Assembly: GCA_945889495.1 (NCBI GenBank)
Contig: CAMDBU010000033.1
Span: forward strand, 1-42,045
DNA: 42,045 nucleotides
Direction: 5' to 3'
From: Syntrophobacter sp. SbD2
GTDB lineage: Bacteria > Desulfobacterota > Binatia > UBA9968
This document shows, in pieces, positions 7,603-12,888 of this stretch. Numbering within the stretch: position 1 is the first letter of the stretch; every line of letters begins with the position of its first letter. Both the position numbers and the translations under genes were made by a program. Below the pieces are notes generated by a model, which did no database searches, was not told where the DNA came from, and worked only from the letters and a program-made list of their open reading frames with translations.

Positions 7603-7632
7603 TTGACATAGTAGACCTAACGAGTCTATATT
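7603..7632 (+). promoter_or_regulatory. Strong sigma70-like promoter for the Rrf2/suf operon
   Basis: A perfect TTGACA -35 hexamer (7603-7608) and TATATT -10 hexamer (7627-7632) are separated by 18 bases. It is the best promoter I can see in the window and points at the Rrf2 gene. Transcription would start near 7639, which makes the GTG at 7639 a poor start codon and favours the ATG at 7678. Confidence 0.75.
7608..7632 (+). promoter_or_regulatory. IscR-type operator inside the suf promoter
   Basis: Between and overlapping the -35 and -10 boxes lies ATAGTAGAC, seven bases, then GTCTATATT. The inner inverted repeat TAGAC/GTCTA is perfect, and the GAC-N7-GTC spacing and left ATA-flank match the architecture of E. 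coli IscR type 1 sites; the right flank matches less well. A protein bound here would block RNA polymerase, so the first gene (Rrf2) probably represses its own operon according to Fe-S status. Confidence 0.6.
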
Positions 7633-7677
7633 CAAATTGTGAAACCCAGTAAGAGCAAAAGCGAGCGCAGTTCGTTG

Positions 7678-8130
7678 ATGAACGTCGGCCGGCGGGTCGA
7701 TTACGCGGTGCGCGCGCTGTCGTTTCTCGCCGGACAGCCGAGCGGCGCGGTGGTCAGCCGGGCCGATATTGAGAAGAGCCAGGACGTACCGTCTTTTTAC
7801 CTATCCAAGATTATGAAGGATCTGGTGGCCGGCGGCTTGGTCCAGTCGCATATCGGTTCCAAGGGCGGCTTTACCTTGGCCAAGAGCGCCGGCGCGATTT
7901 CGATTAAAGATATTTACGAGACCGTGGAGCGGCCGTTGGTGTTGATGGAGTGTCTCGACCAGGGTTCGAACTATTGTTCCTACTGCGCGGTGTGCACTCA
8001 GAAGTCGGTCTGGGAGGAGGCGCAGACCGTGCTCGCCAACTTCTTGGCCGGCGTCACCATCGCCGATATCGCCGACCGCCAGGGCATGAAAGGGCGCATG
8101 GCCAAGCCGGCCATCCAACGAGCCGGATAA
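7678..8130 (+). CDS. Rrf2-family Fe-S-sensing transcription regulator (IscR/SufR-like)
   Basis: The N-terminal winged helix reads 'RVDYAVRALSFLA...VPSFYLSKIMKDLVAGGLVQSHIGSKGGFTLAK', which is typical Rrf2. Counting from ATG 7678, a cysteine cluster C92, C100, C103, C106 follows, in the position of the IscR cluster ligands (92, 98, 104) but with one extra Cys and different spacing. It probably carries a Fe-S cluster and controls the suf genes next to it. A longer reading from GTG 7639 adds 13 charged residues, but that codon lies at the predicted transcription start. NsrR-like nitric oxide sensing is an alternative, given the trHb at the end of the operon. 150 residues. Confidence 0.88.
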   Translation: MNVGRRVDYAVRALSFLAGQPSGAVVSRADIEKSQDVPSFYLSKIMKDLVAGGLVQSHIGSKGGFTLAKSAGAISIKDIYETVERPLVLMECLDQGSNYCSYCAVCTQKSVWEEAQTVLANFLAGVTIADIADRQGMKGRMAKPAIQRAG

Positions 8131-8149
8131 AATTTATTAAGGACAGCGA

Positions 8150-8908
8150 ATGTTAGAGATCAAAAATCTCCGCGCCAAAGTCGGCGACAAAGAAATCCTG
8201 CGCGGCATCGATCTGTATATCGGCGCCGGTGAAGTGCACGCGATCATGGGCCCCAACGGTTCGGGCAAGAGCACTTTAGCCCATGTGTTGTCGGGGCGGG
8301 AAAACTACCAAGTCACCGGCGGCTCGGTGACCTATCAAGGCAAAGATTTGTTGGCCATGGCGCCGGAGATCCGTGCCCGCGAAGGGATCTTTCTCGCGTT
8401 TCAATACCCCATCGAAATCCCCGGCGTGTCGACGACTTATTTTCTCAAAGCCGCGCTCAACGCGGTGCGCAAGCATCGCGGTTTGGACGAACTCGACGCC
8501 ATGGAATTTCTCACTTTGATCAAGGATAAGATGAGCTTGGTGGAAATGAGCCAGGCGCTGCTCAACCGGCCGCTCAACGAAGGCTTTTCCGGCGGCGAGA
8601 AGAAGCGCAACGAAATTTTGCAGATGGCGGTGCTCGATCCGACCCTGGCGCTGCTCGATGAGACCGATTCCGGTTTGGATATCGATGCCCTGCGGGTGAT
8701 CGCCGGCGGCGTCAACGCGCTGCGCAGTCCGAGCCGGGCGATGATCGTGATCACCCACTACCAGCGGTTGCTCGATTATATCGTGCCGGACTTCATTCAC
8801 GTGCTCTACAACGGCCGCATCGTCAAGTCAGGTACCAAAGAGTTGGCCCTGGAGCTCGAAAGCAAGGGCTATGACTGGATCAAGGGCGAAGGCGCGGCGT
8901 TGCAATAA
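8150..8908 (+). CDS. sufC: Fe-S cluster assembly ATPase SufC
   Basis: 252-residue ABC-type ATPase. Walker A is GPNGSGKST, the signature is FSGGEKKRNEI, and Walker B runs into LALLDETDSGLD, a version specific to SufC. 'FLAFQYPIEIPGVS' in the Q-loop region is also characteristic. SufC powers conformational change of the SufB-SufC-SufD scaffold in the cytoplasm. It begins 19 bases after the regulator with a AAGGA ribosome site. In most Suf operons sufB stands between the regulator and sufC; here there is no room for it. Confidence 0.96.
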   Translation: MLEIKNLRAKVGDKEILRGIDLYIGAGEVHAIMGPNGSGKSTLAHVLSGRENYQVTGGSVTYQGKDLLAMAPEIRAREGIFLAFQYPIEIPGVSTTYFLKAALNAVRKHRGLDELDAMEFLTLIKDKMSLVEMSQALLNRPLNEGFSGGEKKRNEILQMAVLDPTLALLDETDSGLDIDALRVIAGGVNALRSPSRAMIVITHYQRLLDYIVPDFIHVLYNGRIVKSGTKELALELESKGYDWIKGEGAALQ

Positions 8909-8932
8909 TTCGTTTCAACGATTCTGAAAAAA

Positions 8933-10252
8933 ATGCTCACCAGTGCAAGTAAAGAACCTTATCTAGCCGCGTTCAAAGGACTGCGCGCTAGCAGCCTGCC
9001 GGCCGGGCCGGCGTGGTTGGAACAGTTGCGCCAGGCCGGCATCGCTAGCTTCGATGCCTTGGGGTTTCCCACGCTCAAGCATGAGGATTGGAAATACACC
9101 AACGTCGAGCCCATCGCGGCGCAGTCGTTTGCTCAGGCTAATGGCGAGGCGAAGTCGATTGTCGGCGCCGAGGTGTTTTCACGCGGGATGATCGAAACCG
9201 ATGCGCCGCGGCTGACCTTCGTCAACGGGGTCTTCAATGCGGCGCTGTCAAATATAGCGAATTTACCGCAAGGGTTGCGGTTGGGCCCTCTGGCGGAATT
9301 CATCAGCCATGAGGATGCCGCGGTGGTCGACCATTTGGGCCGACTGGCGAGCGCCGAGCAGCAGCATTTCGTCGCGCTCAACACCGCTTTTCTCGGCGAC
9401 GGCGCGGTGGTTGATCTGGCGCCGGGCGCCCGGCTAAACCGGCCGATCTATTTGTTGTTCGTTTCGACCTCGACGGCGCAGCCGGTGATTTCGCAGCCGC
9501 GCATTTTGCTTTTGCTTGGCGCCGGCAGTGAGGCGAAGATCGTCGAGAGCTATTTGGGCGTCGGTGACAAAGCTTATTTCTGCAACGCTGTGACAGAACT
9601 GGTCGGTGGCGCAGATTCGATTATCGAGCATTACCGTTTGCAGCAGGACAGCGACGCCGGTTTTCATGTCGGCACCGTCGAAGCGAGCTTGGCGCGCGGC
9701 TGTCATTTAACTTCGCACGCCGTGACCTTGAGCGGCGCTCTAGTGCGCAATAACCTGCGCGTGCTGCTCAACGGCGCCGGCGCCGAATGCGTGCTCAACG
9801 GGCTTTATCTCGCCGACGGCAAGCAGCATGTCGATAACTACACGCTCATTGAGCATGTCAGCCCGCGAGCGTCGAGTTTGGAATTATATAAGGGTCTCCT
9901 CGGCGGCTCGGCTCACGGCGTGTTTAATGGCAAGATCATCGTCCACCCAGACGCGCAGAAGTCCGACGCGCGCCAGACCAACAAGAATTTATTACTCTCC
10001 GACAGCGCGGTGATCGATACCAAGCCGCAGTTGGAAATTCATGCCGACGACGTCAAGTGCAGCCATGGCTCGACCATCGGCCAGTTGGACGACGATGCGA
10101 TTTTTTATCTGCGCTCGCGCGGCCTGGATGTGGCGGCGGCGCGCAGTTTGTTGAGCTTCGCCTTTGCCAGCGACGTGGTTCAGCGGATTAGTATCGAAAC
10201 CCTGCGCCAACGCTTGGACGACTATCTGGTCGGCAGATTCGGGGCTTGGTGA
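8933..10252 (+). CDS. sufD: Fe-S cluster assembly scaffold protein SufD
   Basis: 439 residues of right-handed beta-helix type. The N-terminal '[14 protein letters not shown]' and the C-terminal '[32 protein letters not shown]' are hallmark SufD motifs; the CSH pair matches the Cys and His (C358, H360 in E. coli SufD) near the proposed cluster-forming site. Length fits SufD and I find no SufB-type signature, so it is not a mislabelled SufB. It partners with SufC in the same operon, starting 24 bases after it. Confidence 0.95.
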
Positions 10253-10259
10253 TTTGCCC

Positions 10260-11522
10260 ATGAACGCGGTGCCGCAAAATAATCCGGGAACTCTGGCGTC
10301 TGGGCAGTTCGACGTGGCGCGGGTGCGCGAAGACTTTCCGATTCTTTCTGCCAAAGTTCATGGCAAGCCGCTGGTCTACTTCGACAACGGTGCCACCAGC
10401 CAAAAGCCCCAATGCGTCATTGACGCCATCGATCATTACTATCGCGCCGAAAATTCCAACATCCACCGCGGTGTGCATCACTTGAGCGAGCAGGCGACGG
10501 CGGCCTACGAAGCGGCGCGCGGCAAGCTGCGCGGCTTTATCAACGCGCGCTCGGATAAAGAGATTATATTCGTCCGCGGCACCACCGAAGCGATCAATCT
10601 GGTGGCGCAGAGCTACGGCCGGGCGTTCTTAAAGGCTGGCGATGAAATCGTCGTCTCGGCCATGGAGCATCACTCCAACATCGTGCCCTGGCAGATGCTC
10701 TGTGAGCAGGTCGGCGCCAAGCTCAGGGTGATTCCGATCAACCATGACGGCGAGATCGTCATGGAGGAATTTGAGCGGCTCCTCACCGATAAGACTAAAT
10801 TCGTGTCGGTTACCCATGTTTCAAATGCGCTGGGCACCGTGGTGCCGGTGAAAGAGATCATCGCGCTCGCCCATGGGCGCGGTGTGCCGGTGTTGCTCGA
10901 CGGCGCCCAGGCGGTGCCGCATTTGCAGATCGACGTGCAGGATCTCGACTGCGACTTCTATGCTTTTTCCGGCCACAAAATGTTTGGCCCCACCGGCGTC
11001 GGCGTGCTCTACGGCCGCGCCGAGCTGTTGGAAAAAATGCCGCCCTACCAGGGCGGCGGCGACATGATCAGCCTGGTGACCTTCGAGAAGACTCACTACA
11101 ACGTTCTCCCTTATAAATTCGAAGCGGGGACGCCGAACATCGCCGATGGCATCGCCTTGGGCGTAGCGGTGGACTATTTGCGTGGCCTCGATTGGGCGGC
11201 GGTGACGGCGCACGAAGATGGGTTGCTGCGCTACGCCACCGAGGCGTTGGGACAAATTGCCGCGCTGCGGATCATCGGCACGGCCAAGGAAAAGGCCGGC
11301 GTGCTGTCGTTTGTCTTCGATCATGTGCATGCCCATGATGTCGGCACGATCCTCGATCAGGAAGGTGTGGCGGTGCGCGCCGGCCATCACTGCGCCATGC
11401 CGGTGATGCAGCGCTTCGGCGTGCCGGCGACGGCGCGGGCGTCCTTCGCGTTTTATAATACTATCGAAGAAATCGACGTGCTGGTGCGCGCCATTGGGCG
11501 CGTCTTGAAGGTGTTTGGCTAA
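10260..11522 (+). CDS. sufS: Group II cysteine desulfurase SufS
   Basis: PLP enzyme that takes sulfur from cysteine for Fe-S assembly. The PLP lysine is in [10 protein letters not shown] (K240), and the persulfide cysteine is in RAGHHCAMP (C378). '[12 protein letters not shown]' and 'NSNIHRGVH' at the N-terminus and '[11 protein letters not shown]' in the middle are standard SufS/CsdA. The frame extends 32 codons upstream into sufD, but ATG 10260, eight bases after the sufD stop, gives the family's normal 420 residues. Its stop overlaps the start of sufU by one base, so translation is coupled. Confidence 0.96.
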
Positions 11523-11974
11523 TGTCAGAACTCGACGATCTCTATCAAGAAGTCATCCTCGACCACAATAAGAGCCCGCGTAACTTTCGCGTCATCGGCG
11601 GCGCCAACCGGCGCGCCGAAGGTTACAATCCCTTGTGCGGCGACGAGGTGACGGTGTTTCTGCAAGTCGAAGACGGCGTCATCAAGGACATCAGTTTTCA
11701 GGGTTCGGGTTGCGCGATCTCCAAAGCGTCGGCGTCGATGATGACCACTGAGCTCAAGGGCAAGCCCGAGAGCGCGGCCCATGAACTGTTTGAAAACGTC
11801 CATAACATGCTCACCGGCGAGCCCGGCAGTGAGGGCGGCGGCGCGCGGGTCGGCAAGTTGGCGATCCTTTCTGGGGTCTGCAAATTTCCCGCGAGAGTGA
11901 AATGCGCCAGTCTCGCTTGGCACACCATGGAATCGGCGCTCAAGGGCGAGCCGCAGCCGGCCAAGACCGAATGA
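11522..11974 (+). CDS. sufU: SufU zinc-dependent sulfur transferase/scaffold
   Basis: 150-residue IscU-fold protein with the three ligand cysteines C39 (NPLCGDE), C64 (GSGCAIS) and C128 (RVKCASLAW), plus D41. The linker of about 20 residues before the last Cys (containing GEPGSEGGGARVG) distinguishes SufU from IscU. In known systems SufU binds zinc and receives sulfur from SufS, replacing SufE. Start ATG shares a base with the sufS stop (TAATG), which agrees with a SufS-SufU pair made in fixed ratio. An additional Cys (C120) is present. Confidence 0.94.
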   Translation: MSELDDLYQEVILDHNKSPRNFRVIGGANRRAEGYNPLCGDEVTVFLQVEDGVIKDISFQGSGCAISKASASMMTTELKGKPESAAHELFENVHNMLTGEPGSEGGGARVGKLAILSGVCKFPARVKCASLAWHTMESALKGEPQPAKTE

Positions 11975-12008
11975 ATTTGCCACCGCGAAATTCAATGAGG
12001 CGTAGTCT

Positions 12009-12557
12009 ATGACCACTGAACAACCGATCATTCTGACGCGCGATTGTCCGGCAGTGATGGTGCCGAGCGGCGAACCCTTCTCTCTACAAGCCGGCGGCAA
12101 AGTTTGGCTTACCCAGGCGCTCGGCGGCGGCTACACGGTGATGACCGACCATGGTTTCACCGTGCGCATTGAAGGCCGGGATGGCGACGCGTTGGGATTT
12201 TCGGAAGGACAATCGCCGCTTGCTCAGAAAGCCACGACTAGCGGTTCGGTGGAGGAGCGGGTGTGGCAGCAATTACGCTCCTGTTTCGATCCGGAGATTC
12301 CCGTGAACATCGTCGACTTGGGATTGATCTACGATTGCCAAGTCGACGCACTGCCCAGCGGCGGCCACAAGGCGACGGTTCATTTTACGCTCACCGCTCA
12401 GGGCTGCGGCATGGGCGAGTTTTTGAAAGCCGATATCAAGCGCAAGCTGCTCGAAGTAAAAGAGCTACGCGAGGCGGTGGTCGAACTGGTCTGGGAGCCG
12501 CAGTGGAACCAGAGCCGCATGTCGGTGGCGGCCAAACATCAACTCGGGATCGAGTAA
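12009..12557 (+). CDS. sufT: Fe-S assembly protein SufT (MIP18/DUF59 domain, long form)
   Basis: 182 residues: an N-terminal domain of about 75 residues typical of the long SufT family, then a MIP18/DUF59 domain with 'CFDPEIPVNIVDLGLIYDC' and 'TLTAQGCGMGEFLKADI', ending in 'VELVWEPQWNQSRMS'. SufT helps mature Fe-S proteins, in some organisms under high demand. A Cys stands right before the DPE motif and another in QGCGMG; the latter aligns with the conserved functional cysteine of the fold. It follows sufU by 34 bases in the same operon. Confidence 0.93.
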   Translation: MTTEQPIILTRDCPAVMVPSGEPFSLQAGGKVWLTQALGGGYTVMTDHGFTVRIEGRDGDALGFSEGQSPLAQKATTSGSVEERVWQQLRSCFDPEIPVNIVDLGLIYDCQVDALPSGGHKATVHFTLTAQGCGMGEFLKADIKRKLLEVKELREAVVELVWEPQWNQSRMSVAAKHQLGIE

Positions 12558-12567
12558 CCGTGAAATA

Positions 12568-12888
12568 ATGGAAAGCATCAATCAAACGATCATCGAAGCC
12601 GAAGTCATCGAAGCTCTGCGCACCATCTTCGATCCGGAGATTCCGGTTAACGTCTACGAGTTAGGTTTAATCTACGTCGTCGAGGTGAGCCCCGAGGGGG
12701 CGGTGATGATCCGCATGACCTTGACCTCACCCCATTGCCCAGCGGTGCAGTCGATGCCGGCGGAGATCGAAGGCAAGGTGCGAACCATCACCGGGGTTAC
12801 CGACGTGTCCATCGATCTGGTCTGGGACCCGCCTTGGGATCAATCGAAGATGTCGGAGGCGGCGCGCTTGCAGTTGGGCATGATGTAG
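12568..12888 (+). CDS. Short MIP18/DUF59-family Fe-S assembly protein
   Basis: 106 residues consisting of a single MIP18 domain. 'IFDPEIPVNVYELGLIYVVEV', 'TLTSPHCPAVQSMPAEIEGKV' and 'IDLVWDPPWDQSKMSEAARLQLGM' line up closely with the C-terminal half of the preceding SufT, so the two are relatives and may have arisen by duplication. The SPHCP cysteine is the expected functional residue of this family (SUF-associated or PaaD-like proteins). It starts 10 bases after sufT and is the last plain suf gene. Confidence 0.92.
   Translation: MESINQTIIEAEVIEALRTIFDPEIPVNVYELGLIYVVEVSPEGAVMIRMTLTSPHCPAVQSMPAEIEGKVRTITGVTDVSIDLVWDPPWDQSKMSEAARLQLGMM

Follow-up and report, generated by a model that had tools for sequence, protein, structure and literature searches.

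The suf operon of the window

The window analysed here, a 42,045-nt stretch from Syntrophobacter sp. SbD2 (GenBank assembly GCA_945889495.1, contig CAMDBU010000033.1, positions 1 to 42,045 of the forward strand), carries a suf operon for iron-sulfur cluster assembly from which sufB is absent. All genes of the operon lie on the + strand in the order Rrf2-sufC-sufD-sufS-sufU-sufT-MIP18, at the place and in the arrangement described in the initial annotation. Proteins were assigned to families with NCBIfam models and the cut-offs of those models. The gene for the Rrf2-family regulator extends from 7639 to 8130, with a start at 7639 (GTG) or 7678 (ATG), and scores 106.4 bits with TIGR00738 (rrf2_super, cut-off 73.3) for the part from 7681 to 8130. 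It is separated from sufC by 8131–8149, a gap of 19 nt, as annotated, which is the position of sufB in the sister family f3. The SUF ATPase gene sufC follows at 8150–8908 (TIGR01978, 357.4 bits, cut-off 212.8), and sufD at 8933–10252 (TIGR01981, 262.3 bits, cut-off 222). The 439-amino-acid product of sufD, a scaffold-type protein, had been called SufD and clearly not SufB, and the scores agree: the SufB model TIGR01980 gives 92.7 bits vs a cut-off of 346.4. In an alignment it retains residues C358 and H360 of Escherichia coli SufD.

The cysteine desulfurase SufS and the sulfur acceptor SufU are both present above cut-off, encoded by sufS at 10263–11522 (start codon not settled; TIGR01979, 612.2 bits, cut-off 475.1) and sufU at 11522–11974 (TIGR01994, 150.9 bits, cut-off 92.5). 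The operon ends with a long SufT at 12009–12557, which falls just below its cut-off (TIGR03406, 196.6 bits, cut-off 202.6), and a short MIP18/SUF_assoc protein at 12568–12888 (TIGR02945, 145.6 bits, cut-off 143.4). The NifU_N domain (PF01592) has a single match in the genome, which is SufU itself, so that no IscU/NifU scaffold was found, while HscA, HscB and ferredoxin were not searched for. Across the order, 33 of 35 genomes have one NifU_N match each and none has two.

An intact sufB in a second iron-sulfur operon

A search of the whole genome, a draft of 239 contigs, for the SufB/SufD core domain (PF01458) returned two matches, the sufD of the window and a gene on another contig, C21. The initial annotation had proposed searching the remaining genome and relatives for sufB and had named a copy elsewhere in the genome as evidence against its idea of a changed scaffold; the C21 gene is such a copy. 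Its product is an intact SufB, with 642.6 bits for TIGR01980 (cut-off 346.4) and 917.9 for PRK11814 (cut-off 717), and is far below the cut-off for SmsB (168.7 vs 650). It can be aligned to E. coli SufB over 16–487, from residue 16 to its end, and retains C254 (counted by eye), C405 and E432/H433/E434 in the alignment. SufB C254, SufB C405 and SufD H360 are essential in E. coli according to PMC5571166.

The genes on C21 are arranged in the order surA-pdxA-phosphomannomutase-uvrA-iscS1-iscA-sufB-nifS2-Rrf2-orf-lpxL, with eno-nth further on, several of these names being a reading of the translations. In the coordinates of this locus (L005), iscA occupies 8701–9033 and sufB starts 8 nt after it. 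Scores for the neighbours are above cut-off in each case: iscS1 with PRK14012 (613.4 vs 548), nifS2 with TIGR03402 (566.9 vs 530.75) and iscA with the general A-type model TIGR00049 (119.6 vs 58.8). No Rfam family reached its gathering score in L005:8400–12500. The conserved open reading frame (ORF) between the Rrf2 gene and lpxL (L005:12123–12767) has no NCBIfam match; it is present in the loci of the window's own family (f1) and in sister family f2, and was not seen in the five f3 loci read.

With sufB found on C21, loss of the gene is rejected, and so is the idea of a scaffold built from SufC and SufD alone. The sole point in favour of such a scaffold is the absence of sufB from the window operon; the genome holds an intact sufB, 22 of the 25 family genomes carry the gene in the same second operon (see below), and the scaffold protein of the window has the character of SufD and not of SufB. 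We regard a SufC-SufD scaffold as extremely improbable. The initial annotation had offered two readings of the gap, and it is the relocation of sufB that stands; its SufC-SufD complex lacking SufB does not, given a SufB that keeps C254, C405 and E434.

Placement of sufB and sufC in relatives

The order was sampled with 35 genomes, 25 from f1 (13 genera), one from f2 and nine from f3. Of the 25 f1 genomes, 22 have sufB between iscA and nifS2, whole in 20 (G000, the window's own genome, to G009, G011 and G013–G021) and in pieces at contig ends in two (G010, G024). This placement was found in 12 of the 13 genera; in the 13th the contig ends inside the locus. At the other end of the arrangement, Rrf2 is followed by sufC with no sufB between them in 22/25 f1 genomes, our own and 21 others, and the contigs of G005 and G017, which show no such junction, end inside the suf operon. 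Neither sufD nor sufU was found in G021, which is 78% complete. Both places are visible in 19 f1 genomes, including our own; sufB adjoins sufC in none of these, and sufCD is present in all.

In the comparison of operon order that had been suggested, sufB stands immediately 5′ of sufC in 10/10 genomes of f2 and f3. It is preceded by Rrf2 in seven of these, all f3; in G025 (the f2 genome), G026 and G031 the contigs end in sufB. The iscS1-iscA-nifS2 genes have no sufB between them in any of the six f2/f3 genomes examined. The f3 block reads Rrf2-sufB-sufC-sufD-sufS-sufU-MIP18-lysS-lolC-lolD-bamA, mostly with Def in front, and the window carries this block without its sufB. Where the contigs reach far enough, the downstream lysS-lolC(-lolD-bamA) genes of f2 and f3 match those of the window. 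The f2 genome has the second operon, including its Rrf2 gene, and still has sufB adjoining sufC. Two outgroups, G036 and G040, likewise have Rrf2-sufB-sufC-sufD-sufS-sufU. A sufB in both places at once was seen in no genome, both being visible in 19 from f1 and six from f2/f3.

A wider comparison covered the best 80 of 585 named SufB loci by similarity, which is not a random sample. In 73 of these 80, sufB and sufC share a strand and are no more than 1.5 kb apart; in three sufB stands at a contig end, and in four the genes are separated. Separation of sufB from sufC is therefore unusual but not unique, and adjacency of the two, though the rule, is not a requirement for a working SUF system. 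One of the four detached loci (L096) is an f1 member. The other three are from Acidobacteria (L119), with sufC 4.8 kb downstream of sufB; from Patescibacteria (L130), with an iscA-sufB arrangement and sufB away from sufC; and from Methylococcaceae (L142), with Rrf2-sufB and no sufC within 2.5 kb.

Several further copies or relatives of sufB were seen in the order. Three f1 genomes have an extra sufB outside both operons, at L075:3362–4819 (G014:C45), L067:1302–2876 (G015:C6) and L191:1581–2982 (G004:C421). The G014 copy lies between an upstream Hsp20-like gene and a downstream SufT gene, and the G004 copy is in two frames. In G012, weak SufC-like and SufB-like matches lie side by side at L076 (G012:C28) and L077 (G012:C393), with 35 and 32% identity for SufC and 22 and 30% for SufB; these are possibly minimal SufBC-type systems. 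An f3 genome has, besides its usual cluster, a second, divergent sufC-sufB-sufD-sufS cluster (L095, G032:C134), whose SufB forms a very long branch in the tree.

The recurrence of both arrangements also bears on whether the window itself could be misleading, either by a collapse or misassembly that removed sufB from 8131–8149 or by C21 being contamination. The draft state of the genome, with its 239 contigs, leaves room for such an error. However, 21 other f1 genomes have Rrf2-sufC without sufB, and in G002, G007 and G019 this junction lies inside contigs of 131–228 kb. In two genomes sufB and sufD are inside separate large contigs, of 249 and 228 kb in G002 and of 246 and 186 kb in G019. The C21 SufB groups with those of G001 and G003, from the same genus (support 100/95), and the flanks of C21 match theirs. 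Because relatives share the Rrf2-sufC junction, a collapse at 8131–8149 is very unlikely, and we give an artefact of either kind next to no weight.

Rrf2-type dyads at both operons

Upstream of the suf Rrf2 gene, on the + strand at 7603–7632 (coordinates counted by hand), promoter-like TTGACA (7603–7608) and TATATT (7627–7632) elements are overlapped by an Rrf2-type dyad, AGACCTAACGAGTCT, at 7613–7627. The AGAC-N7-GTCT dyad is matched at 7/8 or better before the suf Rrf2 gene in all 19 f1 regions with data, 17 of them at 8/8 (G004 and G024 were dropped for want of sequence), and in 5/6 f3 regions. Before iscS1 it is found at the same level in 14/18 f1 genomes and in the one f2 genome, and in 0/5 from f3. 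A close relative (at least 60% identical) of the second-operon Rrf2 gene is present in 6/8 f1 genomes searched and in f2; it was found neither in three f3 genomes nor in G019 and G012, the locus being unassembled in G012. Both Rrf2 proteins score below the IscR cut-off (68.7 and 79.3 vs 207.55).

Dyads of this type before both operons suggest parallel regulation, and a similar type of operator at the two sites would help to explain why moving sufB was tolerated. G019 (L041, G019:C27), which has no close relative of the second-operon regulator, has before iscS1 a dyad matched at 8/8, its AGACCT/AGGTCT arms resembling those of the suf dyad; the suf regulator may have taken over the second operon there. 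We leave a clean regulator swap as a remark, since dyads at the second operon vary widely and G018, which has that Rrf2 gene, also has a dyad of the C/G type.

History of the arrangement

In a SufB tree of 54 rows, the three families form one clade (97/89), within which f1 and f2 join (97/83) and f1 is a clade of its own (74/93); with one further long-branch row added, the corresponding values are 98/94 for f1 and 98/77 for f1 plus f2. Horizontal replacement of sufB is not supported, as the SufB proteins of all three families form a single clade. A tree of joined SufC, SufD, SufS and SufU sequences groups f2 with 15 of 16 f1 rows (100/99). The extra sufB copies of G014 and G015 pair together, beside G013, inside the f1 part of the SufB tree. 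From gene order and these trees, a single relocation of sufB on the f1 stem appears to be the simplest and most likely history.

Some of the evidence weighs against this reading. The SufB data do not reject a clade of f2 plus f3 (approximately unbiased test, p 0.356), and f2 contributes only one genome. The joined SufC/D/S/U tree does not recover f1 as a clade, since G019 branches at a fork without resolution, and the separate position of f3 is weakly supported. G012, G022 and G023 show no sufB at the second place, their contigs ending before or inside the locus, and in G015 the sufB of the second locus is split over two frames. In 4/18 f1 genomes the iscS1 dyad matches at less than 7/8. Furthermore, the dyad pattern was picked from the same regions in which it was counted, so that the rates at which dinucleotide shuffles reach 7/8 (7.8% for the suf operon; 4.8% in f1 and 7% in f2 for iscS1) overstate its strength.

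A different history would start from a common ancestor of f1–f3 with sufB in each operon, followed by loss of the suf-operon copy in f1 and of the other copy in the sister families. The result of the topology test leaves a place for such an older duplication with differential loss, and f1 genomes do contain extra sufB copies at further places (G004:C421, G014:C45, G015:C6). Two of these fall inside f1 and represent no old paralogue, and the third, from G004, is not in the tree. The best trees join f2 to f1, both for SufB and for the other suf genes, the two-copy state has not been seen wherever both places are visible, and duplication costs one duplication plus two or three losses vs one move. 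We consider it an unlikely, though not negligible, alternative to the single relocation.

Discussion

Based on these comparisons, it appears that this genome makes an ordinary SufBC2D scaffold whose genes were split over two operons by a move of sufB into a second iron-sulfur operon, a reading to which we assign a probability of roughly 0.88. Production of SufBC2D from two operons is the best supported interpretation because no U-type protein besides SufU turned up. The ancestral suf operon, as in the window, would have kept sufC, sufD, sufS, sufU, sufT and MIP18, while sufB moved, most likely once on the f1 stem, to the site between iscA and nifS2 in uvrA-iscS1-iscA-sufB-nifS2-Rrf2. SufS and SufU would supply sulfur to SufB, possibly aided by the IscS/NifS desulfurases encoded beside it. 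SufC would drive the scaffold and SufD complete it, the three proteins acting in one complex, and the A-type carrier and the SufT/MIP18 proteins would hand clusters on. Neighbouring genes are presumably co-transcribed, and the two operons would have to be co-expressed and may be co-regulated.

The second operon could instead encode a separate, partly independent machine in which IscS/NifS, IscA and SufB work without SufCD. The position of sufB between iscA and nifS2, within a few nucleotides of iscA in our genome, fits such a machine, as does the finding of no U-type scaffold besides SufU. However, SufB function needs SufC, and sufCD accompanies the second operon in all 19 f1 genomes with both places visible; a second sufC was not itself the target of a search. 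We therefore judge a separate machine improbable. The move of sufB may also be functional in itself: SufB would be made together with IscS/NifS and the A-type carrier under a separate Rrf2 regulator, and its amount would be set apart from that of SufCD, permitting shifts between SufBC-like and SufBC2D complexes or feeding by IscS/NifS instead of SufS-SufU. We consider such a function conceivable but rather unlikely.

The split suf operon looks like a known system, modestly altered, with ordinary machinery and no new scaffold. It illustrates that the apparent absence of sufB from a draft genome can reflect a genuine, lineage-wide rearrangement, and neither gene loss nor a new scaffold. One subunit of a core complex was shifted to another operon, while the f2 genome has the same second operon and still has sufB next to sufC, which makes the order a small natural experiment on what an undivided operon and similar operators mean for a complex of several subunits. 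Among the titles and abstract openings searched, we found no report of a sufB moved to an isc-type operon away from sufCD; many journals lie outside that coverage, and this is no proof that the arrangement is unreported.

Known systems resemble the f1 arrangement in part. As in the SufBC2D complex of E. coli (5awf/5awg), SufB, SufC and SufD are all encoded and the key residues checked are retained; unlike there, sufB lies outside the sufC/sufD operon, and the window operon has SufU, SufT and MIP18 genes where that of E. coli has SufE and SufA. The isc-suf operon of Rhodobacter, as described in PMC6956336, also combines sufB with an IscR gene and iscS in one operon, but sufC and sufD belong to the same operon and are not encoded elsewhere as they are here. 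According to PMC9973013, RisR of Myxococcus xanthus represses both isc and suf, and the GAC-N7-GTC reported for it agrees with the core of the dyad found here. Both lineages have Rrf2-family regulators and a dyad of this kind at isc-type and suf promoters. In M. xanthus one regulator serves both operons and there is an ISC machinery; in most genomes checked here each operon has an Rrf2 gene of its own, no IscU was found, and the operators are predicted. Finally, the minimal SMS system (PMC12442378, PMC12584684) likewise builds its scaffold from relatives of SufB and SufC. It does so without SufD, whereas here SufD is kept alongside a SufB that scores far below the SmsB cut-off.

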